Assembly: GCF_007991735.1 (NCBI RefSeq)
Contig: NZ_BJYX01000015.1
Span: 1 to 64,000, forward strand
Length of the DNA: 64,000 nucleotides
Reading direction: 5' to 3'
Source: Terrabacter aerolatus
GTDB lineage: Bacteria > Actinomycetota > Actinomycetes > Actinomycetales > Dermatophilaceae
The position numbers and the translations under genes were made by a program. A model generated the notes under the pieces. The model did not search any database. It saw only the letters and a program-made list of their open reading frames with translations, and was not told the origin of the DNA. Each line of letters begins with the position of its first letter. The stretch's first letter is position 1. Below are positions 28,318 through 57,532 of the stretch, in pieces.

Positions 28318-29006
28318 CGACGGCGGGGACCGGCTGGGTCGTCCTCGGCGCAGGCGGCCACGCGCGCTCGGTCGTCGACGTCCTCGAGCGCTCCGGCCGG
28401 ACGGTCGTCGCGGTCTCCGGTGACGCGCCGGGTGGGGAGCCCTGGCACGTCGACGTCCTCGCCGACGACCGGGCGGCCTTCGAGCTCATCTCGGCGCGGG
28501 GCCTGCACGCCGTCGTGGCGATCGGGTCCATCGCCGCCCGCACCCGCCTCGTCCACGAGCTCGTGTCGCGGGGACTGTCCGCCCCTGCCGTCGTCGCCGC
28601 GACCGCCACGGTCTCGGCCCGCAGCGTCCTCGGCGACGGCACCGTCGTGCTCGAGCACGCCCACGTCGGACCCGCCAGCAGGCTGGGCCGTGCCGTGGTC
28701 GTCAACACCGCGGCCGTCGTCGAGCACGACTGCAGCGTCGGCACGGGTGTGCACGTGGCGCCCGGCGCCGTGCTCCTCGGAGGTGCCTCGGTGGGGGAGG
28801 GGTCGCTCGTCGGCAGCGGCGCGCGGGTCCTGCCCCTGGTGAGCGTCGGGGCCGGGTCCACGGTCGGGGCCGGCGCCGTCGTCACCCGGCACGTGGCCGA
28901 CGGCGACACTGTCGTCGGAGCCCCGGCACGTCGCCCTGACCACCGTCCCGCGGCCCGGGTCGCCCCCGGCGCTCCCGACTCCCGCCCACCCGGAGGCACC
29001 GCATGA
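28314..29006 (+). CDS. legH: Sugar N-acetyltransferase, LegH/NeuD/PglD-like
   Basis: 230 aa. The N-terminal PglD-type domain starts VVLGAGGHARSVVDVLE; a left-handed beta-helix of hexapeptide repeats fills about residues 95-205 (VLGDGTVVLEHAHVGPASRLG, VHVAPGAVLLGGASVGEG, AGSTVGAGAVVTRHV). His116 or His136 within the turn regions would act as base. It would acetylate the 4-amino group of the 2,4-diamino-6-deoxy sugar before epimerisation. Coupled to legI by ATGA overlap. A NeuD-like O-acetyltransferase is the alternative. Confidence 0.75.
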   Translation: MTTAGTGWVVLGAGGHARSVVDVLERSGRTVVAVSGDAPGGEPWHVDVLADDRAAFELISARGLHAVVAIGSIAARTRLVHELVSRGLSAPAVVAATATVSARSVLGDGTVVLEHAHVGPASRLGRAVVVNTAAVVEHDCSVGTGVHVAPGAVLLGGASVGEGSLVGSGARVLPLVSVGAGSTVGAGAVVTRHVADGDTVVGAPARRPDHRPAARVAPGAPDSRPPGGTA

Positions 29007-30061: not shown

Positions 30062-30069
30062 GCCGCCGC

Positions 30070-32345: not shown

Positions 32346-32382
32346 CCACGTGCCCGCGCCCTCGCGCTGGGGCGGGCAGACC

Positions 32383-33459
32383 ATGTCGAACCACGACGAG
32401 AAGGCTGATGTGACAACAGAACTGACACCCGCGCCGATGGCCGCGCCGATCGACGGGTCGATCGCCGGCAAGACGGTCCTCGTGACGGGGTCCGACGGGT
32501 TCATCGGCTCGCACGTGGTGGAGCGGCTCCTCGCCGACGGGGCGCACGTGCGCGCGTTCTGCCTCTACAACTCCAACGGCTCCACCGGCTGGCTCGACGA
32601 GTCCGACGCCTTCAGGGCCGCGGTGCGCGACGGGCAGGCCGAGGTCGTGCTGGGCGACATCCGCGACCCCGAGCACGTCATGGCGACCACGGAGGGGGTG
32701 GACGTCGTGCTCCACCTCGCGGCGCTCATCGCGATCCCGTTCTCCTACGTGGCTCCCCGCTCGTACGTCGAGACGAACGTCATCGGCACCCTCAACGTCC
32801 TCGAGGCGGTGCGCCGGCACGGCACGCCGCGGATGGTCAACACCTCGACGTCCGAGGTCTACGGCACGCCGGAGTCGGTGCCGATCACCGAGGCGCACCC
32901 GCTGCGGGGGCAGTCGCCCTACTCGGCCACGAAGATCTCGGCCGACAAGATGTGCGAGTCGTATGCGTTGTCGTTCGAGACCCCGGTGACGACGCTGCGC
33001 CCGTTCAACACCTTCGGTCCGCGCCAGTCGACGCGCGCGGTCATCCCGACCGTGCTCTCGCAGCTGCTGGCCGGTGCCCGCGAGATCAAGCTCGGTGACG
33101 TGACCCCGAAGCGGGACTTCACCTTCGTCACCGACACGGCCGACGGGTTCGTGCGGGCGGCGCTGGCCGAGGTCGAGCCGGGCGCGACGATCCAGCTCGG
33201 GACCGGGCGCACCGTGTCGGTCGGTGACGTCGTGCAGCTGTGCTGCAAGGTGACGGGCAGCGACGCGCAGATCGTCACCGAGAGCGACCGGATCCGGCCC
33301 GAGGGCTCGGAGGTGCAGATCCTGCTGTCGGACCCCTCCCGCGCCAACGAGGTGCTCGGCTGGGCGCCGACGGTGTCGCTCGAGGAGGGCCTCGCGGCGA
33401 CGGCCGAGTGGCTGCGCCCTCGGGTCGACCCCGAGACGGCCGGCAGGTACCACCGGTGA
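32383..33459 (+). CDS. legB: NAD-dependent 4,6-dehydratase, LegB-like
   Basis: 358 aa extended SDR. Cofactor motif VTGSDGFIGSHVVERLL (about residues 34-50), catalytic Thr-Ser (NTSTSEVYGTPE) and YSATKISADKM. It would remove water across C4-C6 of GDP-GlcNAc without inverting C5. Start: ATG 32383 (MSNHDEKADV); GTG 32350 or GTG 32410 (in the MSNHDEKADV frame) cannot be excluded, and the N-terminal about 30 residues look disordered. It overlaps legC by GTGA. It differs from the PseB enzyme at 45.9 kb, which has the inverting-type STDKA motif. Confidence 0.8.
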   Translation: MSNHDEKADVTTELTPAPMAAPIDGSIAGKTVLVTGSDGFIGSHVVERLLADGAHVRAFCLYNSNGSTGWLDESDAFRAAVRDGQAEVVLGDIRDPEHVMATTEGVDVVLHLAALIAIPFSYVAPRSYVETNVIGTLNVLEAVRRHGTPRMVNTSTSEVYGTPESVPITEAHPLRGQSPYSATKISADKMCESYALSFETPVTTLRPFNTFGPRQSTRAVIPTVLSQLLAGAREIKLGDVTPKRDFTFVTDTADGFVRAALAEVEPGATIQLGTGRTVSVGDVVQLCCKVTGSDAQIVTESDRIRPEGSEVQILLSDPSRANEVLGWAPTVSLEEGLAATAEWLRPRVDPETAGRYHR

Positions 33460-34637
33460 CCGCGACCGGCGAGGCCCACGCCCCGGGAGCCCGCGGTCCG
33501 GAGGGCACGATCCCGCTGGCCGTACCCAACATCGGAGAGCTCGAGCGGCGCTACGTCCTCGAGGCCGTCGAGTCCGGGTTCGTCTCCTCGGTGGGCCCGT
33601 TCGTCACCGAGTTCGAGCAGCGTTTCGCCGAGCGGGTGGGGTCCAAGCACGCCATCGCCTGCGCGACCGGCACCGCGGCGATCCACGTCGGGCTGCTGCT
33701 GCTCGGGGTGGGCCGCGAGGACGACGTCGTCTGCTCCGACTTCACCTTCGTCGGCTCGGTCAACCCCATCGCGTACTGCGGCGCCCGACCGGTGCTCGTC
33801 GACGCCGAGACGACGACGTGGAACATCGACCCGGCCCTGCTCGCCGCCGAGCTCGACCGTCGCGCGGCAGCCGGGGAGGGCCAGCCCGCGGTCGTCGAGG
33901 TCGTTCACGTCCTCGGTCAGCCCGCCGACATGGAACCGCTCATGGACGCGTGCGAGCGACACGGCATACCCGTGCTCGAGGACGCCGCCGAGTCGCTCGG
34001 AGCCACGTGGACGGCCGGGCGCTACGCCGGCCGGCACACCGGCACCGTCGGCCGGGTCGGCGCCTTCTCCTTCAACGGCAACAAGATCGCCACGACCGGC
34101 GGCGGCGGCATGCTCGTCACCGACGACGACGACCTCGCAGCCCGAGCACGCCACCTCACGACCCAGGCCAAGGTGCCCGACGTCGGCTACCTCCACGACG
34201 AGGTCGGCTACAACTACCGCCTCACCAATCTCGCGGCGGGCCTGGGTCTGGCCCAGCTCGAGCGCCTCGGGGAGTTCGTGAAGGCCAAGCACCGGATCGC
34301 AGCCCGCTACGACGAGGCCTTCGCCGACCTGCCGCTCGTGCTCCCGCCCCGGGTCGAGGGGCTCGATGCGACGTACTGGCTCTACTCCGTGCTCGTGCCG
34401 GAGGCCGACGGCCGCGGACGCGACGACTTCCTCGCGCACCTGCACGCGGCCGGCGTCGGGGCCCGGGCCCTGTGGCGACCCCTGCACGCCCAGCCGCCGT
34501 TCCTGTCGGCCCCCGTGCTCGGTGGGAGCGTCGGCGACGGCCTCTTCGCCCGCGGCCTGTCGCTGCCGTGCGCGACCGAGCTGACCGACAGCGACCAGGA
34601 CCGCGTCATCGCGGCGGTGCGCTCCTTCTTCGCCTAG
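33456..34637 (+). CDS. legC: PLP-dependent aminotransferase (DegT/DnrJ), LegC-like
   Basis: 393 aa. PLP-lysine Lys210 in FSFNGNKIATTGGGGM, with ACATGTAAIHVGLLLLGVG, EDAAESLGA (Asp176/Glu179) and the LTNLAAGLGLAQLERL dimer region. It aminates C4 of the 4-keto-6-deoxy sugar made by LegB. Last gene of the legionaminic operon; the antiporter gene downstream has its own promoter-like hexamer. Length is standard. Confidence 0.83.
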   Translation: MTATGEAHAPGARGPEGTIPLAVPNIGELERRYVLEAVESGFVSSVGPFVTEFEQRFAERVGSKHAIACATGTAAIHVGLLLLGVGREDDVVCSDFTFVGSVNPIAYCGARPVLVDAETTTWNIDPALLAAELDRRAAAGEGQPAVVEVVHVLGQPADMEPLMDACERHGIPVLEDAAESLGATWTAGRYAGRHTGTVGRVGAFSFNGNKIATTGGGGMLVTDDDDLAARARHLTTQAKVPDVGYLHDEVGYNYRLTNLAAGLGLAQLERLGEFVKAKHRIAARYDEAFADLPLVLPPRVEGLDATYWLYSVLVPEADGRGRDDFLAHLHAAGVGARALWRPLHAQPPFLSAPVLGGSVGDGLFARGLSLPCATELTDSDQDRVIAAVRSFFA

Positions 34638-43294: not shown

Positions 43295-44680
43295 TCAGGC
43301 CGTGCGCTGCGTCCCGAAGGCGCGGATGGCGTGGTCGAGCACCTCGGGCTCGACGGTCGTGACGAGGTCGGTCGTGGCCCACGAGGGCAGCGTCTCGCCG
43401 GCGGCCTCGACGACGAGCGCGCAGCCGCGGTCCCGAAGAGCCGTGAGCTGGGACTCGTCGAGCGACTCGTGACCGCGCACCTCGACGTAGGCGACGTCCG
43501 GGGTCCCGACGGCCCAGGCGAGGTCCGCGGCGTCCTCGACCACGAGGCCGAGCACCGAGACCAGCCGATCCTCACGGTAGGCACGAGCGCGCTCCCAGCC
43601 ACGGGCCGCGGCGACGGAGCCGGGGAAGACGAGCACGTCGACGCCCCGCCGTCCGAGGCTGGCGAAGGTGCGCTCCACCGAGGCCTCGACGGCGAGCTCG
43701 TCGGCGATGGCGGACTCGTCCTCGAGCGGGCGCGGCGCGACGCGCGAGATGATGCCGAACCGCTTGACGAGCGCGGGCTCGGCGCACGCCTGGAGCAGCT
43801 CCTCGCTGCGCCCGTCGGCGCGCCCGACCTCGATGTGGGTGACGCCTCGCTCGATGGCCTCGGCGATGAGGGAACGCAACCGCTCAGCGCGCTCGGCCGG
43901 TCGCTCGTCGCGCGTCGCGACGTCGAAGTTGCGGGCCGAGAGCACGACCCGTGACAGGCGCCCGGCGTCGGTGCGGACGGCCGTGACCCGGGCTCCGGCC
44001 CCGTCGACGCGCTCGACGAGGCGGGTCATCAGCGTGGGCCACGGCTGTCCCACCGGATCGGACTCGCCGTCGAAGAGGCTCGAGACGCGGACGTAGTCAC
44101 CGAGGACGTCGACCGTGGCCCGGTAGGCCTCGACGCCGTCGGGGCAGCCCACCGGCACGAAGAGCAGCTCACCGAGCGTGCGGCGAAGCCACGGGGTGAC
44201 GTGCTCGCGGTCGTAGGAGGCGGTGGCCTGCTCGTCGGCGTCGCGGAGCGCTCGGACGGTGAAGACCTCGGCGCCGAGGCCCTCGGGGACCCGCTCGATG
44301 TCGACCCGGCCGTAGGTGTGCCCCGACGCGTCGACCGCGGCGATGAGCTCGTCGACGAGGTCGGCGTCGGCCAGCGGGTTGTCACCGGTCAGTCGCACGA
44401 CCCGGTCCGTCTCGTCCAGATCGGCCGTCGCCTGCACGAAGCGCCCGAGCACGTCGTCCAGCGAACCGCGCACGACCTCGATCCCCACGGCGTGCAGGTG
44501 GCTGGCGATGCGCTCGTCGTACTGCTCGGCGCTCGTCGCGACGACGACCTCGTGTCCCGTGCGGCCCGCTCGGCGCGCCACGAGCTCGATGAGCGGCATA
44601 CCGGCGATCGTGAGCATGGCCTTGCCCGGGAGGCGGGAGGAGTTGAGGCGGGACTGGATGACGACTCGGGTGCGGGGCAC
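43295..44680 (-). CDS. pseF: SpsF/PseF-like cytidylyltransferase fused to a degenerate aldo-keto reductase domain
   Basis: 461 aa. Residues 1-235: cytidylyltransferase of the SpsF type, IQSRLNSSRLPGKAMLTIAGMPLIELV and VVRLTGDNPLADADLVDELI (acidic metal site). Residues 245-455: a domain alignable with aldo-keto reductases by VVLSARNFDVATRD...RSLIAEAIERGVTHIEVGRADGRSEELL, but the catalytic tetrad is gone: Asp to Glu284, Tyr to Asp289, Lys to Arg313, His to Pro353. I expect the N-terminal half to make CMP-pseudaminic acid and the C-terminal half to be structural or regulatory. It lies 30 bp downstream of pseG on the same strand. Confidence 0.75.
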   Translation of the reverse strand: MPRTRVVIQSRLNSSRLPGKAMLTIAGMPLIELVARRAGRTGHEVVVATSAEQYDERIASHLHAVGIEVVRGSLDDVLGRFVQATADLDETDRVVRLTGDNPLADADLVDELIAAVDASGHTYGRVDIERVPEGLGAEVFTVRALRDADEQATASYDREHVTPWLRRTLGELLFVPVGCPDGVEAYRATVDVLGDYVRVSSLFDGESDPVGQPWPTLMTRLVERVDGAGARVTAVRTDAGRLSRVVLSARNFDVATRDERPAERAERLRSLIAEAIERGVTHIEVGRADGRSEELLQACAEPALVKRFGIISRVAPRPLEDESAIADELAVEASVERTFASLGRRGVDVLVFPGSVAAARGWERARAYREDRLVSVLGLVVEDAADLAWAVGTPDVAYVEVRGHESLDESQLTALRDRGCALVVEAAGETLPSWATTDLVTTVEPEVLDHAIRAFGTQRTA

Positions 44681-44710: not shown

Positions 44711-45760
44711 TCAGGGGCCCGTGGTGACGGTCAGGCGGTGGTGCTCGATGGCGTCGGCCACCCGCTGGCGGCCGCGCCCGTCGACGAGTCGCTGTCCCCG
44801 GTCGGTCAGCTCGAGCCGAGCGGCGGGGTCCTCGACGAGACGGTGCAGTGCCTCGACCGCGGTGGAGCGGGCCGCGGGGTCGTCGCGCAGGGCGGACAGC
44901 ACGCCGACGGGGACGGCCACGCCCTCGGCGGCCACCGCGTCGTAGCCGACGGCCTGGTTGTCGGTGACGCAGACGAGGGCCGCGGGCACGCCGAGGCAGA
45001 GGAACTCCCACACCGACGAGCCGGCGGCCGTGACGGCCAGGTCGCACGTGACGGCGAGGGCGGCGAGGTCCTCGACGGGTGGGACGACCTCCAGGCTCTG
45101 GCCGGGCCCCGTGTCGAGCGCCCGGAGCCGCTCGGCGATCTCGGCGCGGGCCGCGACGGCGACGACGTGGACCGGCAGCCCGGTCGCGAGCAGCAGGGGC
45201 ACGACGACCGGGCCGGCGGCATACGGGTCCGTGCCACCGAAGACCGTCAGCACCCGCGTCGGTGAGCCGGGGCTCGCCGGCGTCTCGGGCGTGCGGCGCC
45301 GGCGCAGCACCTGGTCACGGAAGAGGACGAAGCCGAGACCCGTGAGGGCCACTCCCGACCGTGCCGGGTCGGCGACGGCGCCGAGGTTCTGGTCCAGGAC
45401 GAGGTCGGCCTCCTGCTCGGCCCCGAACGGTCCGTCGGAGACGGCGAGCACCGTGACGCCGGCCGCCCGCAGGGCCGAGCCGCACCGGGGATCCAGGAGG
45501 TAGCCGTCGAGCACCATGACGTCGAGCCCGAGACGGGCGGCGAGGGCGGCCAGCTCGTCCGGGTCGGACGGCGCGTCGTGACGCCCGAGACCGCGCTCGC
45601 GCACCTGCTCCTCGACCCAGGGGACACCGCCGACGTCACCGACCAGGCTGACCGCGTGACCACGCGAGAGGAGCTCCTCGGCGAGCGCGAGGCAGCGGAT
45701 CACGTGACCCACCCCGAGCTCGGCCCCGCCGTCGCAGCGCAGGCCGACATGAAGACGCAT
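44711..45760 (-). CDS. pseG: UDP-sugar hydrolase of the pseudaminic acid pathway
   Basis: 349 aa GT-B-like fold. The N-terminal GVGHVIRCLALAEEL carries catalytic His19 (equivalent to His17 of C. jejuni PseG) and the C-terminal half has VTAAGSSVWEFLCLGVPAALVCVTDNQ, the nucleotide-binding loop. It hydrolyses UDP-2,4-diacetamido-2,4,6-trideoxy-beta-L-altropyranose to the free sugar for PseI. First gene of the pseG-pseF operon, divergent from pseB by 172 bp. Confidence 0.85.
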   Translation of the reverse strand: MRLHVGLRCDGGAELGVGHVIRCLALAEELLSRGHAVSLVGDVGGVPWVEEQVRERGLGRHDAPSDPDELAALAARLGLDVMVLDGYLLDPRCGSALRAAGVTVLAVSDGPFGAEQEADLVLDQNLGAVADPARSGVALTGLGFVLFRDQVLRRRRTPETPASPGSPTRVLTVFGGTDPYAAGPVVVPLLLATGLPVHVVAVAARAEIAERLRALDTGPGQSLEVVPPVEDLAALAVTCDLAVTAAGSSVWEFLCLGVPAALVCVTDNQAVGYDAVAAEGVAVPVGVLSALRDDPAARSTAVEALHRLVEDPAARLELTDRGQRLVDGRGRQRVADAIEHHRLTVTTGP

Positions 45761-45932: not shown

Positions 45933-46922
45933 GTGAGCATTCTCGAAGGGTCGTCGATCCTCGTCACAGGTGGGACCGGGTCCTTCGGCAAGGCGTTCAT
46001 CCGCGAGGTGCTGGACCACCACGACCCCAAGAGGGTCATCGTCTACAGCCGCGACGAGCTGAAGCAGTGGGAAGCCCGCCAGCTCTTCAACGACGACCCC
46101 CGTCTGCGCTGGTTCATCGGCGACGTCCGCGACCTCGAGCGCCTGCGTCGGGCCATGCACGGCACCGACTACGTCGTCCACGCCGCAGCCCTCAAGCAGG
46201 TCGACACCGGCGAGTACAACCCGCACGAGTTCGTCAAGACCAACGTCCTCGGCAGCCAGAACGTCATCGAGGCGTCCATCGACGCCGGCGTCAAGAAGGT
46301 CGTCGCGCTCTCGACCGACAAGGCGAGCTCCCCGATCAACCTCTACGGCGCGACCAAGCTGACGGCCGACAAGCTCTTCATCCTCGGCAACCACTACGCG
46401 GCGCAGTACCCCTCGCGTTTCGCCGTGGTGCGCTACGGCAACGTGACCGGCTCGCGCGGCTCGATCATCCCCAAGTTCCGAGCCCTGCACGAGGCGGGGG
46501 AGTCGCTGCCCATCACCGACCTGCGGTGCACGCGCTTCCTCATCACGCTGCCCGAGGCCGTGCAGATGGTCCTCGACACCTTCGAGCTCATGCAGGGTGG
46601 CGAGCTCGTCGTCCCGCACATCCCCTCGCACCTCGTCACCGACCTCGCGCAGGCGATCGCGCCGGGCGCCAAGATGCACGACATCGGCCTGCGCCCCGGC
46701 GAGAAGCTGCACGAGGAGATGATCAGCCCCGAGGAGGGTCGCCGCGCCATCATGATCATGGACGGCAAGTACTACGTCCTCGAGCCCGAGCTCGCGACGT
46801 GGGGCTACAAGCCGCGCACCGACGGCACGCCCGTCCCCGAGGGCTTCCACTGCGCCTCCGACAAGAACGACCTCTGGATCGGTGCCGACGAGATCCGCGA
46901 GATGCTCGAGGCGGGTATCTGA
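45933..46922 (+). CDS. pseB: UDP-GlcNAc 4,6-dehydratase (C5-inverting)
   Basis: 329 aa extended SDR. VTGGTGSFGKAF (residues 11-22), HAAALKQVDTGEYNPHEFVKTNVLGSQN, and the inverting-type catalytic set STDKASSPINLYGATK (Asp129, Lys130, Tyr138, Lys142), as in C. jejuni FlaA1/PseB. It makes UDP-2-acetamido-2,6-dideoxy-beta-L-arabino-hexos-4-ulose. A strong AGGAGG precedes GTG 45933. The next gene pseC starts at a TTG 1 bp after the stop. Confidence 0.9.
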   Translation: MSILEGSSILVTGGTGSFGKAFIREVLDHHDPKRVIVYSRDELKQWEARQLFNDDPRLRWFIGDVRDLERLRRAMHGTDYVVHAAALKQVDTGEYNPHEFVKTNVLGSQNVIEASIDAGVKKVVALSTDKASSPINLYGATKLTADKLFILGNHYAAQYPSRFAVVRYGNVTGSRGSIIPKFRALHEAGESLPITDLRCTRFLITLPEAVQMVLDTFELMQGGELVVPHIPSHLVTDLAQAIAPGAKMHDIGLRPGEKLHEEMISPEEGRRAIMIMDGKYYVLEPELATWGYKPRTDGTPVPEGFHCASDKNDLWIGADEIREMLEAGI

Positions 46923-46923
46923 G

Positions 46924-48051
46924 TTGATCCCCTACGGACGCCAGTCGGTCAACGAGGACGACGTCGAGGCGGTGGCGCAGGTCCTCCGCGGTGACTGGCT
47001 CACCACGGGCCCGACGGTCACGGCCTTCGAGCACGAGCTCGAGAGTCTCACCGGAGCCACCCGGTGCGTCAGCGCGACGAGCGGCACCGCCGCCCTGCAC
47101 ATCGCGTATGCCGCAGCCGGCGTCGGTCCCGGGGACGAGGTCGTCACGACGCCGATGACCTTCGTCGCGACCGCATCGTGCGCGGTGGCCCTCGGGGCCA
47201 AGGTGCGCTTCGTCGACGTCGAGGAGGACACCGCCAACATCGACCCGGTGGCCCTCGACGCGTCCGTCACCGACCGGACCAAGGTCATCGCCGGCGTCGA
47301 CTACGCCGGTCACCCCATCGAGATCGACGCGATCAACGAGACGGCACGCCGCGTCGGTGCGCTCGTCGTCGAGGACGCGGCGCACTCGATCGGCTCGACG
47401 TACAAGGGCCGGCCCGTGGGGTCGCTGGCCGACCTCACGACCTTCTCGTTCTTCCCGACGAAGAACATGACGACGGCCGAGGGCGGCGCCGTCGCCACCC
47501 TCGACGCCGAGCTCGGCGAGCGGGCGCACCGCTTCCACTTCATCGGGCTGGTCCGCGACCGGGACGCGATGCGCTACCCCGACGAGGGCCCGTGGCACCA
47601 GGAGGTGCACGAGTACGGCCTCAACTACCGCCTGCCCGACGTGCTCGCGGCGCTGGGCCTCAGCCAGCTGAAGCGCCTCGCGTCGTTCAAGGCGCGCCGG
47701 GCCGCGATCTTCGCCCGCTACCAGGAGGGCCTCGCCGGTGTCGACGGGATCCGTCTGCCGACCCAGCGTGAGCACGTCGACCCGATCTGGCACCTCTACC
47801 CGCTGCGCGTCCTCGACGGCCGCCGCCGCCAGGTGTTCGACTCGATGCGCGCCGCCGGGGTGGGCGTCCAGGTCAACTACATCCCCGTCTACTGGCACCC
47901 GCTCTTCGAGGACATGGGCTTCACGCGCGGCATGTGCCCCAACGCCGAGCAGTTCTACGCCGAGGAGCTGTCGCTGCCGATGCACGCCGAGCTGACCGAC
48001 GCCCACGTCGACCAGGTCATCGACGCCGTCCGCGCCGCCGTCGGAGGCTGA
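46924..48051 (+). CDS. pseC: UDP-4-amino-4,6-dideoxy-L-AltNAc transaminase
   Basis: 375 aa DegT-family aminotransferase. PLP-lysine Lys180 in FSFFPTKNMTTAEGG, with SATSGTAALHIAYAAAGVGPGDEV and EDAAHSIGSTY. The TTG start at 46924 reads MIPYGRQSVNEDDVEAV, the usual PseC N-terminus; upstream codons lie inside pseB. It aminates C4 of the PseB product. The longer C-terminal segment VNYIPVYWHPLF is the PseC-type insertion. Confidence 0.88.
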   Translation: MIPYGRQSVNEDDVEAVAQVLRGDWLTTGPTVTAFEHELESLTGATRCVSATSGTAALHIAYAAAGVGPGDEVVTTPMTFVATASCAVALGAKVRFVDVEEDTANIDPVALDASVTDRTKVIAGVDYAGHPIEIDAINETARRVGALVVEDAAHSIGSTYKGRPVGSLADLTTFSFFPTKNMTTAEGGAVATLDAELGERAHRFHFIGLVRDRDAMRYPDEGPWHQEVHEYGLNYRLPDVLAALGLSQLKRLASFKARRAAIFARYQEGLAGVDGIRLPTQREHVDPIWHLYPLRVLDGRRRQVFDSMRAAGVGVQVNYIPVYWHPLFEDMGFTRGMCPNAEQFYAEELSLPMHAELTDAHVDQVIDAVRAAVGG

Positions 48052-48055
48052 TCCC

Positions 48056-49189
48056 GTGCACCACGCGAACCACTTCTACGGTCACGCGCACATCATGGCC
48101 CGCTACGTCGGCCTCGAGGCGCCGCCCCGCATCTGGGGCTACCTCCAGCACGGGTGGAACATGCACGACGGCTTCGCCGTCGGGACCGTCTTCACCCCGC
48201 AGTACCCCAAGTTCGTCTGGTCCGAGGCCTGCGCCCGGCGTGGCTGGGCCGCGGGCCTGCGCAACTACATGGTCGTCGCCGCCCCGTGGCTCTACCTCCT
48301 CGAGCTCGAGCGGCAGAAGGAGTGGCTCGCCACGGCCGAGCCGCCCACCGGGACGATCGTCTACCCGTTCCACGGGTGGGAGGGCCAGCAGGTCCTCGGC
48401 AGCCACACGGCATACATCGAGGAGGTGAAGGCCGCCGAGGGCGACGTGCCCATCACGGTGTGCCTCCACTGGAACGAGTACGACAACCCCAAGGTGCGCC
48501 GCGAGTACGAGGACGCCGGCGTGCGCGTCGTGACCCACGGACAGCGCGGTTACCTGTGGCAGGACACCGACGTCGCGTTCCTCTACCGCCAGCTGCACGA
48601 GATGCGTGGACACCGGCGCGTCGTCAGCAACCGGATGAGCAGCGCGATCCTGTATGCCGCGTCGGCCGGTGTCGAGGTCGGGGTCTACGGCGACCCCATG
48701 GCCCTCGAGTCCGACCACGCGGTGCTCGGTGGCGTCGGCAAGCCCCGACGGATCTGGCCGGAGATGCACCAGTTCTCCGTCCCGATGGACTATGCCGCGG
48801 ACGTCGCCAACCGCGAGCTCGGCGCCGACGAGATGCTCCTGCCCGAGGAGGTCATCGACGCGTTCGGGTGGGCCGACGAGATCGCCAAGCCCGGTCCGCC
48901 CCCGCCGGCCCCGCCGCTCGAGGTCGACATGTCCGTCTTCACGCGCCGTCGGCGCAGGAGCCACCGCTCGGAGAGCCACCGTGCGCCGGGTGCGGAGGAG
49001 CCCTCGAGCCTCCTCGGCTCGATCGACGTCACCGTCGAGGACGACCAGGACCACGGCAAGCACGCCGAGACCAAGTCCGAGAGCCGTGACCGGGACCAGC
49101 GCACCGGTGGGGCGGAGCCGACCGGCGATGCCGCCGTGCCCTCGGTGGGCAACCCGGAGGGCAGCTCGGTCTCCACCGACGAGTCCTGA
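48056..49189 (+). CDS. Uncharacterised glycan-locus protein (candidate glycosyltransferase)
   Basis: 377 aa, starting 4 bp after pseC, so in the same operon. Residues 1-285 form the conserved part: HHANHFYGHAHIMARYVGLEAPPRIWGYLQHGWNMHDGF, IVYPFHGWEGQQVLGSH, TVCLHWNEYDNP and VVSNRMSSAILYAASAGVEVGVYGDPMALE. The order of these segments (N-terminal sugar-like loop, a YPFHGW block, and a late S.AILYAASAG..V.VYG block) resembles GT-B enzymes with a donor site late in the chain, but I cannot name the family. Residues 290-377 are charged low complexity. A candidate for pseudaminic acid transfer, by position alone. Confidence 0.45.
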   Translation: MHHANHFYGHAHIMARYVGLEAPPRIWGYLQHGWNMHDGFAVGTVFTPQYPKFVWSEACARRGWAAGLRNYMVVAAPWLYLLELERQKEWLATAEPPTGTIVYPFHGWEGQQVLGSHTAYIEEVKAAEGDVPITVCLHWNEYDNPKVRREYEDAGVRVVTHGQRGYLWQDTDVAFLYRQLHEMRGHRRVVSNRMSSAILYAASAGVEVGVYGDPMALESDHAVLGGVGKPRRIWPEMHQFSVPMDYAADVANRELGADEMLLPEEVIDAFGWADEIAKPGPPPPAPPLEVDMSVFTRRRRRSHRSESHRAPGAEEPSSLLGSIDVTVEDDQDHGKHAETKSESRDRDQRTGGAEPTGDAAVPSVGNPEGSSVSTDES

Positions 49190-49258: not shown

Positions 49259-50335
49259 TCAGACGAGGTCCCAGGACATCGGCGTGCCGCGCTCGACGTC
49301 GCGGGTGAACCGCTTGGACTCGACGAGCGAGAAGGCGTCCGGGGCCAGGCCGTTGGCGGGGCGGATGGACCGCACGTTGGCCGCGGTCACGGGGTCACCG
49401 GCCTTGACGTCCTCGACGACGAAGAGCGAGCGGCGGAAGCGCAGGCCCTCGCGCTCGGCCTCACGAGCGCCGATGCGCGGCTCGCCGAGCGCCTGCCAGG
49501 CGACCTTGGTCTCGCGGACCAGTGCGGCGAGCTCGTCCGGCTCGAGCGAGAAGGCCGAGTCGACGCCGCCCTCCTCGCGGGACATCGTGACGTGCTTCTC
49601 GACGAGGACCGATCCGAAGGCGACCGAGGCGACGGCCGCGCCGATGCCCATCGTGTGGTCCGACAGGCCCACCGGGACGCCGAAGGCCTCGCGCATGACG
49701 GGGATGCCGCGCAGGTTGGACGAGGCGGGGTCGGCCGGGTAGCTGACGGTGCAGGAGAGCAGCATGACCTGGCGGTTGCCGGTGGAGTGTGCCGCCTCGA
49801 CGGCGGCCGCGATCTCGCCGACCGACGCCATCCCCGTCGAGATGATGAGCGGCTTGCCGGTGCGGGCGGCGAGACGGATGAGGGGGAGGTCGACGATCTC
49901 CGACGACGCGATCTTGTAGGCCGGCACGTCGAGGCTCTCGAGGAACTCGACCGCGGTCGGGTCGAAGGGGCTCGAGAAGGCGAGCAGGCCGAGCTCACGT
50001 GCCAGGTCGAAGATCGGCTCGTGCCACTCCCACGGGGTGTGGGCCTCCTCGTACAGCTCGTAGAGCCGGCGCGAGCCCCACAGCTCGTGGTCCTCGGAGA
50101 GGCGGAACTCGGGCTTGTCGACGTCGATGGTGATCGTGTCGGCGGTGTATGTCTGGAGCTTGATCGCGTGGGCGCCGGCCTCGGCCGCCATCCGGACGAT
50201 CTCGAGGGCCTTGTCCAGGCTGCCGTCGTGGTTGCCCGACATCTCCGCGATGATGAACGGCGGCGCGTCGGGTCCGACGGGCACGCCGCCGATCGTCAGG
50301 GACGTCGTGGCTGGTGTTTCGACCGGGGTGCTCAT
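49259..50335 (-). CDS. pseI: Pseudaminic acid synthase (NeuB family)
   Basis: 358 aa. TIM barrel with FIIAEMSGNHDGSLDKALEIVRMAAEAGAHAIKLQTYTADTITID, the LQTYTADTITID motif being typical of PseI rather than LegI or NeuB, then FSSPFDPTAVEFLESLDVPAYKIASSE and LSDHTMGIGAAVASVAFGSVLVEKHVT. A C-terminal SAF domain starts near residue 300 (RFRRSLFVVEDVKAGD). It condenses the PseG product with phosphoenolpyruvate. ATG 50335 begins MSTPVETPATT, 7 bp after pseH. Confidence 0.88.
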   Translation of the reverse strand: MSTPVETPATTSLTIGGVPVGPDAPPFIIAEMSGNHDGSLDKALEIVRMAAEAGAHAIKLQTYTADTITIDVDKPEFRLSEDHELWGSRRLYELYEEAHTPWEWHEPIFDLARELGLLAFSSPFDPTAVEFLESLDVPAYKIASSEIVDLPLIRLAARTGKPLIISTGMASVGEIAAAVEAAHSTGNRQVMLLSCTVSYPADPASSNLRGIPVMREAFGVPVGLSDHTMGIGAAVASVAFGSVLVEKHVTMSREEGGVDSAFSLEPDELAALVRETKVAWQALGEPRIGAREAEREGLRFRRSLFVVEDVKAGDPVTAANVRSIRPANGLAPDAFSLVESKRFTRDVERGTPMSWDLV

Positions 50336-50342
50336 CTGTCGT

Positions 50343-50834
50343 TCAGTCCTTCGTGGCTCGAACCCGCAGCACGGGTGTCGGGGTGCCGTCGATGTCGTGG
50401 GTGTAACGCTCGATCTCCTCGAAACCATTGCGTCTGTTGAACCGTCGCACGGCCTCGTTGGCCTCGAGGACCTCGCCCTCGAGGGTCGTCAGGCCGAGCT
50501 CGTCGAAGGCGAGTCGCTTGGCCTGGCGCTGGATCTCGATCCAGGCGGGGAGCAGCTCGCCGCGCTCCTTGAGGCCCTCGTTGTCGAGGTAGTAGCCCCA
50601 CCAGGCGCTACCGGCCTCGCGGTCGATGTCGAAGTAGGTCACGACCCCGGACGGGACGTCGTGGCGCACGTAGATCCAGATCTCGCGGGCGTCGGTCTCG
50701 CGCGTCGCCGCCCAGAAGGCGGCATGCTCCTCGTCGGTGATCTCGTGCTGCGTCAGCGACACGGCACGCACCTCGGGGTGGTTGCGCCAGCGGAGCACGT
50801 CCGCGCTGTCGGCATCGGTTGCGGGACGGAGCAT
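50343..50834 (-). CDS. pseH: GNAT acyltransferase, PseH-like
   Basis: 163 aa. GNAT pattern: MLRPATDADSADVLRWRNHPEVRAVSLTQHEIT, WIYVRHDVPSGVVTYFDIDREAGSAWWGYYLD (strand 4 and acetyl-CoA site), LEGEVLEANEAVRRFNRRNGFEEIERY. PseH acetylates N4 of the UDP-sugar from PseC. It completes the six-step pseudaminate pathway and sits in a pseH-pseI operon. Its promoter region (107 bp) is shared with the ACP cassette on the other strand, which raises the possibility that the acyl donor is an ACP-bound acyl group, not acetyl-CoA; sequence alone does not decide this. Confidence 0.8.
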   Translation of the reverse strand: MLRPATDADSADVLRWRNHPEVRAVSLTQHEITDEEHAAFWAATRETDAREIWIYVRHDVPSGVVTYFDIDREAGSAWWGYYLDNEGLKERGELLPAWIEIQRQAKRLAFDELGLTTLEGEVLEANEAVRRFNRRNGFEEIERYTHDIDGTPTPVLRVRATKD

Positions 50835-50899
50835 CTGACCTCCTCATGAGGACGCCGCGGGCACCATGGGGCCGCGGCGGTCGGTGGGGGATTCGTTGT

Positions 50900-50905
50900 T
50901 AGACT
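50900..50905 (+). promoter_or_regulatory. Candidate -10 of the ACP cassette
   Basis: TAGACT in the 107-bp gap between pseH and the ACP gene, 37 nt upstream of the ATG; AAGGCGG precedes the ATG. Confidence 0.4.
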
Positions 50906-50941
50906 ACCGGACGCCCCATCCCCCCAGCCCAAGGCGGAAAC

Positions 50942-51193
50942 ATGAGCGCACTGAGCCGTGACGCGATCCGGACGATGATGGCCGAGGTCCTTCAGGCCCA
51001 GGGCAAGTCGATGCCTGAGAGCGACTCCGCGAACCTCGAGGAGATCGGCTTCCGTTCCCTCGACTTCTCCGAGCTCGCCCTGCGTGTCGAGGACGAGATC
51101 GGCGACGAGCTGAACTTCGACGCACCCGAGCTGCGCCAGATCGCGACGATCTCCGACGTGCTCGACTTCCTCGAGCAGCTCCAGGCCGCGTGA
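50942..51193 (+). CDS. Acyl carrier protein
   Basis: 83 aa four-helix acidic protein. The phosphopantetheine site is Ser39 in GFRSLDFSELALRVE (RSL replaces the usual DSL, which is tolerated in stand-alone carrier proteins of secondary pathways). Helix II/III acidic residues are present (EDEIGDELNFD). It is not the fatty-acid AcpP, since no fab genes are near. It overlaps the ligase gene by GTGA, so it is a dedicated carrier, first gene of a four-gene operon facing pseH. Confidence 0.85.
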   Translation: MSALSRDAIRTMMAEVLQAQGKSMPESDSANLEEIGFRSLDFSELALRVEDEIGDELNFDAPELRQIATISDVLDFLEQLQAA

Positions 51194-52407
51194 GCGCGGG
51201 AGCTGGCGGTCTCGCCGGCGCCGCCAACCGGATCATCACCCGCGGCTTCGACGGCCGCTGGGACCAGCTCGAGGCGATGCAGCTGCCGGCCGCGTCGGCC
51301 GTCGCCGTCGGCGACAACCACGACGCTGCCCGCGCCGTGTGGGCCGCGGCCACGGGTGACCTCGAGGTGCTCGTCGCCTCGCGGTCCCGCCTGACGCCGG
51401 ACCTCGCCGAGGGGCTGCGCGACGCCGGCCTCGCGGTCGTCGACGGTGACCGCGTCGACGCTCCGACGACGGCCCGCGACGCGACGCCCGGTCGGGTCTG
51501 GCTCCTGACGAGCGGCAGCACGGGCCGCCCGAAGCAGGTGGCGCACACCCTGGCCTCGCTCACCACCGTGGCCGGCGACCAGCCCCGGCGCACCTGGCTG
51601 TGTCCCTACGCCCACGGCGCGTACGCGTGGTGGCAGGTCGTGACGCTGAGCATCGCCCACCCGGGCCAGGACGTGCTCTTCATCGAGCCCGACGAGCTCG
51701 ACACGTGGCCGGCACGGGCCCTCGAGGTCGGCGTCACTGCCGCCTCGGGCACTCCGACGTTCTGGCGCCAGGCGCTCTACCGCGACCCCGACAGCGTCGC
51801 CGCCCTGCCCCTCGAGCAGGTCACCCTCGGCGGCGAGCCCGTCGACCAGGCGATCCTGACCCGCCTGACCGAGATGTTCCCCGCGGCGCGCGTCTCGTGG
51901 ATCTACGCCTCGAGCGAGGCCGGGGCCACCATCGCCGTCCACGACGGGCGGGCCGGCTTCCCGCAGGAGTGGCTCGGCCGCGAGATGGAGGGCCGGGCCA
52001 CGCTGACCGTCGACGACGGTGAGCTGCTCATCGCCTCGCCCAAGCGCGGCGAGGGCATCGACCGGGTGCTCCGCACCGGCGACCGGGTCGAGGTCGTCGA
52101 CGGCCGAGTGCTCATCACCGGCCGCATCGCCTCCGACGAGATCAACGTCGGCGGCGCGAAGGCGTCGGCCTCGGCCGTGCGCGACGTCCTCCAGGCCCAC
52201 CCGGCCGTGGCCTGGGCCTCGGTGCGCGGCCGCAAGGCCCCCATCGTCGGCAGCATGGTGACGGCCGACGTCGTGCTCTCCGGCGAGGCCACCACCGCGG
52301 AGCTGACGGCCTGGTGCTCGGAACGGCTCCCGGACTACTCCGTGCCCCGTCGGGTGCGGTTCCTCGACCAGATCCCGATCAAGGAGACCCTGAAAAGCGA
52401 TGTCTGA
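51190..52407 (+). CDS. AMP-dependent acyl-ACP ligase (ANL superfamily)
   Basis: 405 aa, shorter than typical 500-aa members. ANL motifs: LLTSGSTGRPKQV (A3, 105-117), PTFWRQ and YASSEAGAT (A5), RTGDRVEVVDGRVLITGR (A7-A8) and the terminal A10 lysine region IPIKETLKSDV with Lys402. The compact N-terminal half lacks part of the acyl pocket domain seen in fatty acyl-CoA ligases, suggesting a small acid substrate. It probably adenylates an acid and loads it on the ACP encoded upstream. Couples by GTGA to the ACP gene and by an 8-bp overlap to the reductase gene. Confidence 0.78.
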   Translation: MSAGAGGLAGAANRIITRGFDGRWDQLEAMQLPAASAVAVGDNHDAARAVWAAATGDLEVLVASRSRLTPDLAEGLRDAGLAVVDGDRVDAPTTARDATPGRVWLLTSGSTGRPKQVAHTLASLTTVAGDQPRRTWLCPYAHGAYAWWQVVTLSIAHPGQDVLFIEPDELDTWPARALEVGVTAASGTPTFWRQALYRDPDSVAALPLEQVTLGGEPVDQAILTRLTEMFPAARVSWIYASSEAGATIAVHDGRAGFPQEWLGREMEGRATLTVDDGELLIASPKRGEGIDRVLRTGDRVEVVDGRVLITGRIASDEINVGGAKASASAVRDVLQAHPAVAWASVRGRKAPIVGSMVTADVVLSGEATTAELTAWCSERLPDYSVPRRVRFLDQIPIKETLKSDV

Positions 52408-53149
52408 CAAGACCGAACCCATCGGCCCCGCAACGGTCGTCGTCGTCTCGGGCGGCTCGCGCGGGCTCGGCCTCGCGATCGTCGAGGACATCCTCGCCCA
52501 GGGCGCCAAGGTCGCGGCCTTCGCGCGCACCGTCACCCCCGAGCTCGAGGCCGTGGCCGCCGCACATCCCGACCGCGTGGTCGCCGCGTCGGTCGACGTC
52601 ACCGACGTCAAGGCCGTCAACGCGTTCCTCAAGGAGGCGGAGTCCCGCCTCGGCCCGATCGACGCGCTCGTCAACAACGCCGCCATGGGCCAGGACAGCC
52701 TCCACGTGCACACCTCGCCGGAGCACATCGCGCGGATCATCGAGACCAACCTGACGGCGCCGCTGCTGCTCGCCCGGGCGGTCCTGCGTCGGATCATGGC
52801 CAAGGGCAACCGCGGGCGCATCGTCATGGTGACGTCCGTCTGCGCCCAGCGCGGCTACTCCGGCCTCGTCGCCTACTCCGCGACGAAGGGCGGCCTCGAC
52901 AGCGCCATGCGCACGCTGGCCCGCGAGATGCACGGTCGGGTCCTCGTCAACAGCGTCGCTCCCGGCTTCTTCGCCTCCGAGATGAGCTCGGTGCTCGGCC
53001 AGACGCAGCTCGACACGATCACCCGTCGCACGCCTTCGAACCGGCTCGTCGAGCCCGAGAACATCGTGCCGGTCGTCAACACGCTGCTCTTCCAGGACAC
53101 CAACATCAACGGCCAGGTCATCACGGTCGACGGCGGCAACAGCATCTGA
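52400..53149 (+). CDS. 3-oxoacyl-ACP reductase-like SDR
   Basis: 249 aa classical SDR: VSGGSRGLGLAI (Gly-rich loop), VNNAAMG, VMVTSVCAQRG (Ser143-like), YSATKGG (Tyr/Lys pair at about 158-162) and VITVDGGNSI. FabG-like, so it would reduce a keto group on an ACP-bound acyl chain, consistent with an ACP and ligase encoded just before it. It overlaps the ligase stop by 8 bp and the next gene by TGATG. Confidence 0.82.
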   Translation: MSDKTEPIGPATVVVVSGGSRGLGLAIVEDILAQGAKVAAFARTVTPELEAVAAAHPDRVVAASVDVTDVKAVNAFLKEAESRLGPIDALVNNAAMGQDSLHVHTSPEHIARIIETNLTAPLLLARAVLRRIMAKGNRGRIVMVTSVCAQRGYSGLVAYSATKGGLDSAMRTLAREMHGRVLVNSVAPGFFASEMSSVLGQTQLDTITRRTPSNRLVEPENIVPVVNTLLFQDTNINGQVITVDGGNSI

Positions 53150-53631
53150 TGCAGGCGCGGGCGGACCTGCTCTCGCGAGCGGTCCGCGAGCACCCCGTCG
53201 TCATCGAGGCCCGGGACGGGCACCGGTGCGACGGGGGCACCCACTCCCACCTGGCCGACGGCCGGGTGGTCTGCTGGGTCCTGCCCGCGGCCGGGCTCCG
53301 CGACGCCGACGACGTATGCGTGGACGACCTCCCTGCTGCCCGCGCGGTCGATGCGGAGCTGTCCCGTCAAGCCGTTCCTCCGACGGTGGCGGCCCGGTGG
53401 CAGGCCGGGGGAGAGGCACTGGACGCGCAACGGTTCTGGGACCGGTGGTGCGCCACCGAGGTCCTCGCCAAGCTCGCCGACGTCCCGATGGTCGTGCTCG
53501 TGGGCGGCCCGCCCGTCACGTCGAGTCCCGTCCGACGCCACGGCGTCGAGGTGCACTGGCTCGTCCGCCGCGTGGCGGACGTGGTGGTGGCCCAGGGGTT
53601 GTCGTGGGCCACCACCACCGACGTCACTTGA
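53149..53631 (+). CDS. Small protein with phosphopantetheinyl-transferase-like motif
   Basis: 160 aa, fourth gene of the ACP operon. The stretch RFWDRWCATEVLAKLADVP (residues 95-113) resembles the catalytic W..KE...K motif of 4'-phosphopantetheinyl transferases, with Glu104 and Lys108 in register; an upstream acidic pair CVDDLP (Asp59/Asp60) could be the second metal-binding element at the right distance (about 45 residues). A small dedicated transferase that activates the neighbouring ACP would make functional sense. The match is partial and the rest of the protein shows no clear family. Its stop overlaps the stop of the next convergent gene by 8 bp. Confidence 0.45.
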   Translation: MQARADLLSRAVREHPVVIEARDGHRCDGGTHSHLADGRVVCWVLPAAGLRDADDVCVDDLPAARAVDAELSRQAVPPTVAARWQAGGEALDAQRFWDRWCATEVLAKLADVPMVVLVGGPPVTSSPVRRHGVEVHWLVRRVADVVVAQGLSWATTTDVT

Positions 53632-55550: not shown

Positions 55551-55647
55551 AGCGATGCCGTGCAGGAGCGGGCGCACGACCGATCGGCACCCGACCCGCC
55601 GCATGCCCACCCAGACCCTCCGGGGCCAGACGACTGCAGGAGCGACG

Positions 55648-56517
55648 ATGCCGGCGCTGACCACCGTGGGCGCTGTCGTCCTGTCGATGGGGGACCGTCC
55701 CACCGAGCTCGCCAAGGCGCTCGACACGCTCCTCGCCCAGGAGGGCGTCGACCTCGACGTCGTGCTCGTCGGCAACGGTTGGGAGCCGCGCGGACTGCCT
55801 GACGGTGTCCGCACGGTCCACCTGCCCGAGAACGTCGGCATCCCCGAGGGGCGCAACGTGGGCGCCCGCGAGGTGCGCGGCGAGATCCTCTTCTTCTACG
55901 ACGACGACGCCTTCCTGCCCACGACCGACGTGCTCGCCCGCCTCGCGGCCGAGTACGCCCTCGACGACCGCGTCGCCGTCGTCCAGCCGCGCGGCTGCGA
56001 CCCCGACGGACGCCCCACCCCCCGGCGCTGGGTGCCCCGGCTGCGGGCCGAGCAGGGCGGCGCCGGGGGAGAGGTCGTCGTCTTCTGGGAGGGCGTCTGC
56101 ACGATCCGCCGGGCCGCCTTCGAGTCGGTCGGCGGCTGGCCCGGCCACTTCTGGTACGGCCACGAGGGCATCGATCTCGCCTTCCGCCTCGTCGACGCCG
56201 GCTGGCGTCTGCTCTACCGGCCCGACGTCGTCGTCAACCACCCGGCCACCCAGCCGACGCGGCACGCGGTCTACTACCGGATGAACGCCCGCAACCGGGT
56301 CTGGGTCGCCAAGCGCAACCTGCCGCACCCGGTGGCCGAGGTCTACGTCGGCGTCTGGTCGGCCATCACCGTGGCCCGGGTGCGCGACCGCGAGAAGCTC
56401 GGCGTGTGGTTCCACGGCCTCCGGGAGGGGGTGCGCACCGACGCGGGGCCGCGCCGCCCCATGTCGTGGCGGACCGCCTGGCGCCTCACCCGTGCTGGGA
56501 GGCCGCCGGTTGTCTGA
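55648..56517 (+). CDS. GT2 glycosyltransferase
   Basis: 289 aa. GT-A: TTVGAVVLSMGDRPTELAKALDTLLAQEG, ENVGIPEGRNVGAREVRGEILFFYDDDAFLP (DxD-like DDD), and EGVCTIRRAAFESVGGWPGHFWYGHEGIDLAFRL. The DDD motif and a C-terminal region with R..Y..RN.VW (YYRMNARNRVW) are seen in actinobacterial GT2 enzymes of surface polysaccharide loci. ATG 55648 is preceded by GCAGGAG; ATG 55603 is an alternative. It overlaps the next gene by TTGTCTGA. Confidence 0.78.
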   Translation: MPALTTVGAVVLSMGDRPTELAKALDTLLAQEGVDLDVVLVGNGWEPRGLPDGVRTVHLPENVGIPEGRNVGAREVRGEILFFYDDDAFLPTTDVLARLAAEYALDDRVAVVQPRGCDPDGRPTPRRWVPRLRAEQGGAGGEVVVFWEGVCTIRRAAFESVGGWPGHFWYGHEGIDLAFRLVDAGWRLLYRPDVVVNHPATQPTRHAVYYRMNARNRVWVAKRNLPHPVAEVYVGVWSAITVARVRDREKLGVWFHGLREGVRTDAGPRRPMSWRTAWRLTRAGRPPVV

Positions 56518-57532
56518 CGCCGCCGACACCTCGGACCTCGTCCTGACCGGGGTGCGGTCCCGCTCGCACCTCGTCTACGCGTCGTCCTACCTGCGCCACG
56601 TGCTCGAGACGCGCACCGGCCCGGTGCGCCTGACCGTCCTGCCGACGGGCGACGCGTTCGGCGACGGGCCGGCGGCGGAGGCAGCGGTCCGGGACCTGCT
56701 CGTCGAGGACCCGCGCCTGCTCGTGCGTTTCGCGGACTCGGCCGAGGTCGTCGCCGGCCTTCCCCCGAGCGCTCGCCTCCTCTGCGTCGGGGCGCCCTCC
56801 GTCCGCGTCTGGACGACGTTCGTCCGCACCCACCGGGGGCGGCCTCCCCGCGTCACCGTCATCGACGAGGGTCTCGGTTCGTTCGGCACCTGGGCCACGC
56901 GCCGCAGGGCCTACCGCCGCGAGGGCGGAGGCGAACCCCGCTCGACCGTGCGGGCGGTCGCGGTCGCGTCGGGCGCGAGGTGGCTCACCGACGAGCGCTG
57001 GTCGCTCTACGCCAGGGACGGGCGTGGCTGGCGCGTCGACGAGCGCGTCGCCCGCGAGTTCCGCCACCGACTCGAGGGGGCGCCCCCGCCCCCCGGCACG
57101 GCCGTCTACCTCACGCAGCCCTGGGCGGCGCTCGGGCTGCTGTCCCAGACCGCCTACGCGGCCCACCTCGCGGCGGTGCGCGAGGCCGTGGCGTCCGTGG
57201 GCCTGTCGCTCGTGCTGCGGCCGCACCCCTGGGAGCAGCCGGAGTCGTATGCCGGGTTCGACCTCGTGCACGGACGAACCCCGGCCGAGCTCGACCGCCA
57301 CGTCGTCGCCGCCGGCCTCGTGCTCGGGGGCAACAGCACGGCGCTGCTCAACCTCGCAGCCGTGCACCACACTCCCGCGGCCCGGGTCATGGTCCCCGAG
57401 CTGGCGTCCCTGGACGCCGCCCTCGGGAGCGGCCAGCGCACCCTGCTCGACTCCTTCCTGCCCCCGGCCGTCCCCGTCGAGGAGCTGGCCCGGACCCTTC
57501 GCGTGGGGGGTCGGGGCACCGCGCCCCTGTAG
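56510..57532 (+). CDS. Bacterial sialyltransferase-like glycosyltransferase (GT52/GT38-type motifs)
   Basis: 340 aa. The family-defining motifs are both present: D/E-D/E-G as DEG at residues 119-121 (VTVIDEGLGSFGTW) and HP at 239-240 (LVLRPHPWEQPE), followed by GGNSTALLNLAAVHH near 273-287, similar to the ST(A/S)L donor-site motif. These features occur in bacterial sialyl- and polysialyltransferases that use CMP-Neu5Ac. With CMP-nonulosonate production encoded in the same locus, this is the best candidate for adding legionaminic or pseudaminic acid. TTG 56510 is chosen because GGGAGG lies 7 nt upstream; a GTG at 56492 is the alternative. Confidence 0.7.
   Translation: MSDAADTSDLVLTGVRSRSHLVYASSYLRHVLETRTGPVRLTVLPTGDAFGDGPAAEAAVRDLLVEDPRLLVRFADSAEVVAGLPPSARLLCVGAPSVRVWTTFVRTHRGRPPRVTVIDEGLGSFGTWATRRRAYRREGGGEPRSTVRAVAVASGARWLTDERWSLYARDGRGWRVDERVAREFRHRLEGAPPPPGTAVYLTQPWAALGLLSQTAYAAHLAAVREAVASVGLSLVLRPHPWEQPESYAGFDLVHGRTPAELDRHVVAAGLVLGGNSTALLNLAAVHHTPAARVMVPELASLDAALGSGQRTLLDSFLPPAVPVEELARTLRVGGRGTAPL

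Follow-up and report, generated by a model that had tools for sequence, protein, structure and literature searches.

How acyl groups other than acetyl reach a bacterial nonulosonic acid is the question raised by a four-gene cassette of Terrabacter aerolatus; to our knowledge, these sugars carry a wide diversity of acyl groups, and the route of the non-acetyl ones to the sugar is mostly unsettled. The cassette occupies positions 50942–53631 of a stretch of 64,000 nucleotides (NCBI RefSeq assembly GCF_007991735.1, contig NZ_BJYX01000015.1, positions 1 to 64,000 of the forward strand; hereafter the window). Its four open frames encode an acyl carrier protein (ACP), a compact AMP-ligase, a FabG-like reductase and a protein of 160 residues (orf4), and they face pseH of a pseudaminic acid (pse) locus. 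On balance we favor the reading, drawn from comparisons of sequence, that the cassette makes a dedicated acyl-ACP and that PseH would use it on the 4-amino group of the UDP-altrosamine intermediate, giving a non-acetyl acyl group at N7. Read in this way, the cassette genes offer a compact, testable route for acyl groups reaching the sugar.

A four-gene cassette divergent from pseH

A first reading made from the letters of the window (the sequence-only reading) had described four overlapping genes sharing a divergent promoter region with pseH. All four frames proved to be open, with overlaps of 4 bp (ACP/ligase), 8 bp (ligase/reductase) and 1 bp (reductase/orf4), and the first of them begins 107 bp from the divergent pseH start. 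The divergent gap therefore stands, but the promoter itself was not recovered by a scan of positions 50700–51100, which found no sigma-70-like match; because of this result, the term "promoter region" reflects the divergent arrangement only. The features are as follows.

50343..50834, minus strand: PseH (TIGR03585), of a distinct subfamily without the usual coenzyme A (CoA) pyrophosphate loop; proposed user of acyl-ACP
50835..50941: divergent intergenic region between pseH and the ACP gene, 107 bp
50942..51193, plus strand: acyl carrier protein, 83 aa; PF00550, 26.3 bits (cut-off 20.8)
51190..52407, plus strand: compact adenylate-forming ligase, 405 aa, GTG start; PF00501 and PF13193; predicted ACP loader
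52400..53149, plus strand: FabG-like short-chain reductase (SDR), 249 aa; adh_short, 156 bits
53149..53631, plus strand: orf4, compact phosphopantetheinyl-transferase-like protein, 160 aa

The neighboring genes form a pse locus, with PseB, PseC, PseI and PseH all above their NCBIfam cut-offs.

Linkage of the cassette to pse loci

Unrelated genomic contexts had been named beforehand as the outcome that would speak against a link between the cassette and the pse genes. A scan of named loci with a ligase alignment returned 147 relatives, of which the best 80 were kept; all 80 are actinobacterial by title, with Kribbella, Micromonospora, Actinoplanes, Flexivirga, Dermacoccus, Raineyella and Tessaracoccus among the genera. 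These loci hold pseH in 77 cases, pseI in 70, an ACP gene in 79 and an SDR gene in 79, and wherever both pseH and the ACP gene are present (77 loci) the two are divergent, so that the contexts are far from unrelated. The gap between them is below 700 bp in 59 loci and 3.0–6.6 kb in 18, 15 of which are Kribbella. Seven of the ten loci without pseI are stretches that end at a contig edge. Among the incomplete loci, the ligase is the sole cassette gene in L099, pseH and pseI are both missing from L047, L112 is without pseI, and L114 starts 436 bases before the ligase.

We also searched 58 relatives, a set that shares genomes with the 80 named loci (e.g. L042 and L023) and is not independent of it. 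All 58 hold more distant AMP-ligases. A close homologue of the cassette ligase was found in 15, at 62–100% identity (62–92% in the 14 besides the window's own genome); the next best piece, part of a gene of G034, is 50% identical over 88 residues, and the rest are at 44% or below among the matches listed. In each of the 14, ACP, ligase, SDR and pseH are grouped as in the window and in the same gene order. PseH of the window's type occurs in exactly the 15 genomes that hold the ligase, whereas PseI scores above its cut-off in 18 of the 58, and both the ligase and this PseH are missing from the remaining three (G013, G023 and G028). Among the PseI genomes, the co-occurrence of ligase and PseH type gives a Fisher p of 0.0012, a value not corrected for kinship. 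Across the phylum, the ligase (expectation value E ≤ 1e-60) was found in 3 of 396 genomes, each with a PseH of the window's type, and a curated PseH above cut-off in 7, two of which hold the ligase. Chance neighborhood is ruled out, the order recurring in the 14 ligase-holding relatives and in nearly all of the 80 named loci. We conclude that the cassette is part of the pse locus.

Close relatives with and without the cassette also differ in their PseH, which provides a natural control. In G013 and G023, PseG is fused to a different GNAT (L210 6996–8690, minus strand; L211 7356–9074, plus strand). G028 showed no match to the window PseH; its PseG frame bears a C-terminal extension, and a 375-residue frame, ATP-grasp-like by eye, lies between the pse genes (L209 11715–12842, minus strand) and is perhaps another acylation route.

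PseH proteins linked to the cassette have a changed donor site

The window PseH is a member of the curated family (TIGR03585, 99.6 bits against a cut-off of 93.1), although the cassette PseH of G259 falls under that cut-off at 73.7. Scored with a profile built from the window PseH as seed, 93 cassette PseH proteins (84 distinct) reach 208–257 bits, against 118–138 for four comparison PseH and 56 for a fifth, L120. Those five (L116–L120) come from the phylum sample, in which the 30 best PseH loci were taken and scored with the same profile, and their cassette-free status means absence of this ligase only. Seven plasmid-borne proteins bring the comparison set to 12. The loci of Sphingobium, Mesorhizobium, Rhizobium, Priestia and Peribacillus are cassette-free by the genes annotated up to about 8 kb away, a range partly truncated by the ends of the records; the two Sinorhizobium records have no usable annotation and are cassette-free by a ligase profile search that gave weak matches only. 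Two GNATs, from Azospirillum lipoferum and TSH100 (L224 and L229), were excluded for lack of annotated pse genes next to them.

The motif [KR]GxG of the CoA pyrophosphate loop region, expected of an acetyl-CoA GNAT, is absent from all 84 distinct cassette PseH and present in 11 of the 12 comparison proteins; the exception, L117, has KAAG, and no ligase was found there. A stricter form, [RQK]xxGx[GA], matches none of the 84 and 5 of the 12. The loop region spans 31 residues in 83 of the 84 cassette PseH and 29 in the remaining one, as against 24–27 in the comparison set, an extension of about six residues. Outside the actinobacteria, a Ponticoccus PseH-like protein beside ACP-SDR-ligase-LuxE lacks both motifs and has a loop region of 31, and the GNAT of an Azospirillum brasilense island also lacks both but has a loop region of 26, which is not longer. 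One further mark was dropped. The general-acid Tyr of GNATs, present in all five PseH compared first, is Asn in 84 of 84 cassette PseH, yet its change is not specific to ACP use, because His stands at that site in the seven plasmid PseH, whose loci were without a cassette as far as seen.

The best-known relatives belong to the same GNAT family and take the same position in the pathway. The Campylobacter jejuni and Helicobacter pylori enzymes are reported to use acetyl-CoA and to target the 4-amino group of the UDP sugar (PMC4964394). The CoA loop of C. jejuni PseH reads KGVG, and a Tyr lies close to that protein's C-terminus; in the window type these are KERG and Asn, and the loop region is longer. 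With pseH linked to the cassette and its donor site changed, the proposed connection of the cassette with pseudaminic acid acylation is supported.

A different acyltransferase might instead use the cassette's acyl-ACP on a hydroxyl, or on a different sugar of the same glycan, while PseH keeps its CoA donor. The cassette does lie 3–7 kb from pseH in 18 of 77 loci (15 Kribbella), and a NeuD-like acetyltransferase is encoded in the same window, in another nonulosonate locus (27477–29006). Moreover, ligase homologues on two Rhodobacterales plasmids adjoin an annotated acyltransferase (acyltransferase-ACP-ligase-SDR, L215 7063–9798 and L219 6268–9740) without annotated pse genes, and the module may therefore serve other sugars too. 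Among twenty proteins scanned from the pse locus area (pseG not included), however, PseH is the sole match to an acyltransferase family, and the linked PseH is without the donor-site motif in every one of the 84 distinct sequences. We consider this explanation unlikely.

Conserved features of the ACP, ligase and reductase

The motif GFRSLDF is identical in all 79 ACPs found across the 80 named loci, and Ser39 within it is the expected phosphopantetheine site. ANL ligases are recognized by conserved ATP and catalytic motifs, which include TSGSTGxPK, TGD and a C-terminal Lys. The ATP motif, TGD, GR...D and the C-terminal Lys region are kept in the ligases of the 80 loci with few exceptions (T replaces the K of GRPK in two of the 80, four show an S/T change, and a few have C-terminal gaps or changes), placing them among the ANL ligases. 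The solved proteins closest to the cassette ligase in sequence are 5jjq, an AMP-dependent ligase, and a beta-aminoacyl-ACP synthetase, both with weak scores; CoA ligases acting on short and on long acids come next. In solved ligases, an Asp binds the amine of the substrate; in the alignment this region is gapped opposite GAYAWWQ of the cassette ligase, which suggests a non-amino acid as the substrate. The reductase has the Ser, Tyr and Lys of short-chain reductases, with YxxxK and NNAA in 79 of 79 sequences and the catalytic Ser in 78 (one Thr), and its nearest solved sequence is MupS, the sole PDB sequence match at E ≤ 1e-40.

It has been proposed, for Aeromonas islands with ACP, FabG, ligase, LuxE and LuxC genes, that such a set makes a liposugar component (PMC7874193). 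Applied here, the acyl group would be a longer fatty acid and the product a lipid-bearing sugar or anchor, in keeping with the fatty-acid ligases among the solved relatives; none of the twenty scanned proteins, however, was reported as a LuxC, a LuxE or a condensing enzyme, and we judge such a product quite improbable.

orf4 is very probably a compact phosphopantetheinyl transferase

The sequence-only reading had seen a phosphopantetheinyl transferase (PPTase)-like motif in the small protein, and this assignment gained weight. Sfp-type PPTases are about twice the length of orf4, and the signature D-x-E ... W-x3-E-x3-K, with its spacing, is typical of Sfp. In orf4 the corresponding residues are D68-A-E70 and W100, E104 and K108, all kept in 13 homologues; over a larger set the five are invariant in 67 of 67 distinct sequences, a count made without L063, L067 and L073, whose matched pieces are short. 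By hhalign against 36 PPTase sequences, collected with an Sfp-type query, orf4 aligned with a probability of 88% (P 3.2e-6), and the signature residues fell in register; in global mode the values were 73.5% and P 3.6e-6, and control runs against PseH gave P values of 0.5 and 0.91. The family score is another matter: orf4 does not reach the Pfam ACPS gathering threshold, orf4 alone has no Pfam or NCBIfam match, and no PDB sequence match was found for it. The best of five AlphaFold models, which span 50.2 to 85.5 in predicted local distance difference test (pLDDT), has a pLDDT of 85.5 and a predicted template modeling score (pTM) of 0.84. From its signature and profile alignment, orf4 is very probably a compact PPTase; since the window's own genome holds two other PF01648 matches above cut-off, it would be an additional enzyme.

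A profile found orf4 in 79 of 96 stretches (the window, the 14 relatives, the 80 named loci and one more), among them L034, where tblastn had missed it. In L032 (6685–7911, minus strand), a single open frame covers both an orf4 homologue and the family-2 glycosyltransferase downstream of it. That orf4 is a regulatory or structural protein while housekeeping PPTases charge the ACP is the least probable of the alternatives: only 1 of 13 members touches ACPS (E 0.11), no PDB sequence matches, the window's own genome has the two PF01648 matches and 13 of 16 Kribbella loci do without the gene, but the five signature residues are invariant at Sfp-type spacing and hhalign separates PPTase profiles from the unrelated control.

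A proposed route to a hydroxyacylated pseudaminic acid

From the genes, their motifs, their linkage and the changed PseH, the reactions, the acyl group, the acceptor position and the final glycan can be proposed as follows. orf4 would attach phosphopantetheine to Ser39 of the ACP. A short carboxylic acid would be adenylated by the ligase and loaded on the ACP, where the FabG-like reductase would turn 3-oxoacyl-ACP into 3-hydroxyacyl-ACP. The variant PseH would then draw the acyl group from the ACP rather than from acetyl-CoA; GNAT-fold enzymes can take acyl-ACP, as LuxI-type synthases do, and the 4-amino group of the UDP sugar becomes N7 of pseudaminic acid. PseG, PseI and PseF would complete CMP-pseudaminic acid, and glycosyltransferases would place the sugar in an envelope glycan. 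The acyl group is probably a short 3-hydroxyacyl, of which 3-hydroxybutyryl would be the likeliest known product: a 3-hydroxybutanoyl group at N7 has been reported in Shigella boydii type 7 (PMC3628348) and in Sinorhizobium fredii HH103 (PMC4881576). In two other strains of Sinorhizobium, [KR]GxG is retained in PseH, which would fit a CoA donor for the Sinorhizobium hydroxyacyl group.

Several observations weigh against acylation by PseH from the cassette's ACP. In the 15 Kribbella loci the cassette lies 4.2–6.6 kb from pseH, and orf4 is present in only 3 of 16 Kribbella loci, which account for 13 of its 17 misses. Because the stricter GNAT motif is matched by only five of the 12 comparison PseH, and neither form by the GNATs fused to PseG in G013 and G023, the contrast in motif varies with the form used. 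PseH of Nonomuraea gerenzanensis shows the same loop loss and loop length, yet the record of this species gave no ligase match at E ≤ 1e-15. Fatty-acid ligases, too, are found among the solved relatives of the ligase. The reductase scores 166.2 bits with TIGR01830, under the curated FabG cut-off of 297.75, and its identity as FabG is for that reason not certain; the surroundings of the window's cassette showed neither a condensing enzyme nor a source of a 3-oxo acid. Flagellin is encoded in the window's own genome. Finally, no sugar analysis of any of these species was found in the literature.

The likely target is an envelope glycan

Flagellin (PF00669, E ≤ 1e-10) is encoded in 16 of the 58 relatives, but in only one of the 15 cassette genomes, the window's own, where it lies on another contig; one of the other 14, G002, is 74% complete. 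Flagellin as the target throughout the group is therefore unlikely, although it may still be the target in the window's strain, and an envelope glycan is probably the product for the group. Extending the proposed route, we suggest tentatively, as a possibility somewhat short of an even chance, that in a large actinobacterial group PseH switched its donor from acetyl-CoA to acyl-ACP and forms one inherited unit with the carrier, the ligase, the reductase and a half-size Sfp-type PPTase. The N7 acyl group would then be found on a non-flagellar envelope glycan of these bacteria and not on that of CoA-dependent relatives.

Neighboring genes

The other genes of the locus are as follows.

43295..44680, minus strand: pseF-like cytidylyltransferase with a long C-terminal extension; CTP_transf_3 over residues 5–172 of 460
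44711..45760, minus strand: pseG-like hydrolase, named by eye from sequence and position
45933..46922, plus strand: pseB, TIGR03589 above cut-off
46882..48051, plus strand: pseC, TIGR03588 above cut-off
49259..50428 as the listed frame, minus strand: pseI, pseudaminic acid synthase, TIGR03586, 461 bits (cut-off 340)
55558..56517, plus strand: family-2 glycosyltransferase downstream of the cassette, PF00535

The true start of pseI probably lies further inside its listed frame. Homologues of the pseG-like protein occupy the same place in several related loci, and in the pseF-like product the residues past 172 have no Pfam match at E ≤ 0.01. Between pseC and pseI, positions 48056–49189 encode a 377-residue protein with no Pfam or NCBIfam match that recurs in related pse loci, at times in several copies. 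Downstream of the cassette, the family-2 glycosyltransferase has a homologue in 13 of the 14 relatives' loci, the 14th (L022) being a contig of 5.2 kb. The same 13 loci hold a homologue of the 346-residue product of 56492–57532, which has no family match (L022 is cut); its RPHP and NST motifs recall bacterial sialyl- or polysialyltransferases, making it a candidate pseudaminic acid transferase.

The window holds a second nonulosonate locus, of legionaminic type, at 27477–34637. Its genes encode a NeuD-like acetyltransferase, a NeuB-like synthase (343 bits, cut-off 399.65), a sugar nucleotidyltransferase, and LegB-like and LegC-like proteins, the last two likewise below cut-off.

Comparison with known systems

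The sequence-only reading knew of no system of this composition described for a nonulosonate locus, a claim that did not hold. The group II polar-flagellum glycosylation islands of Aeromonas are described as combining genes for an ACP, a 3-oxoacyl-ACP reductase and an AMP-dependent synthetase, together with luxE and luxC, with pse genes, and in A. piscicola AH-3 these five open reading frames follow pseH (PMC7874193). The cassette shares with them an ACP, a reductase (FabG-like, under the FabG cut-off) and an AMP-dependent synthetase beside pseH, a likeness known from gene content and not from sequence. It differs in that the Aeromonas islands serve flagellin and carry luxE and luxC, whereas no such family was found among the twenty neighboring window proteins scanned; the accessible part of that report names no PPTase. 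Flagellin glycosylation islands of Enterobacteriaceae contain the same kinds of gene, for an ACP, a CoA ligase (CaiC) and FabG, plus LuxE and LuxC, and the accessible part of that source states no tie to nonulosonic acid, the word "pseudaminic" appearing there a single time (PMC4875605).

Plasmids of Azospirillum brasilense Sp7 and A. ramasamyi hold pseI and, near it, ACP-ligase-SDR followed by the gene for ketoacyl-ACP synthase III (KASIII) and flagellin. The order ACP-ligase-SDR near pseI is common to both systems, and the A. brasilense Sp7 ligase shows 41% identity across 76% of the query, the SDR of that strain 46%. The Azospirillum module has its own KASIII and an alpha/beta hydrolase, adjoins flagellin and gave no orf4 match by tblastn. 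With Sfp-type PPTases, orf4 shares the D-x-E and W-x3-E-x3-K signature in register, while it stays below the Pfam family score.

If the proposed route is correct, it suggests a function for the "fatty acid" genes of flagellar islands, and loss of the PseH loop would be a sequence mark of strains likely to carry non-acetyl pseudaminic acid. As far as searches of the open-licence literature go, what sets the cassette apart from the known systems is its private compact PPTase, a PseH subfamily that accompanies it and has a changed donor site, and its spread in actinobacteria that are mostly free of flagellin.

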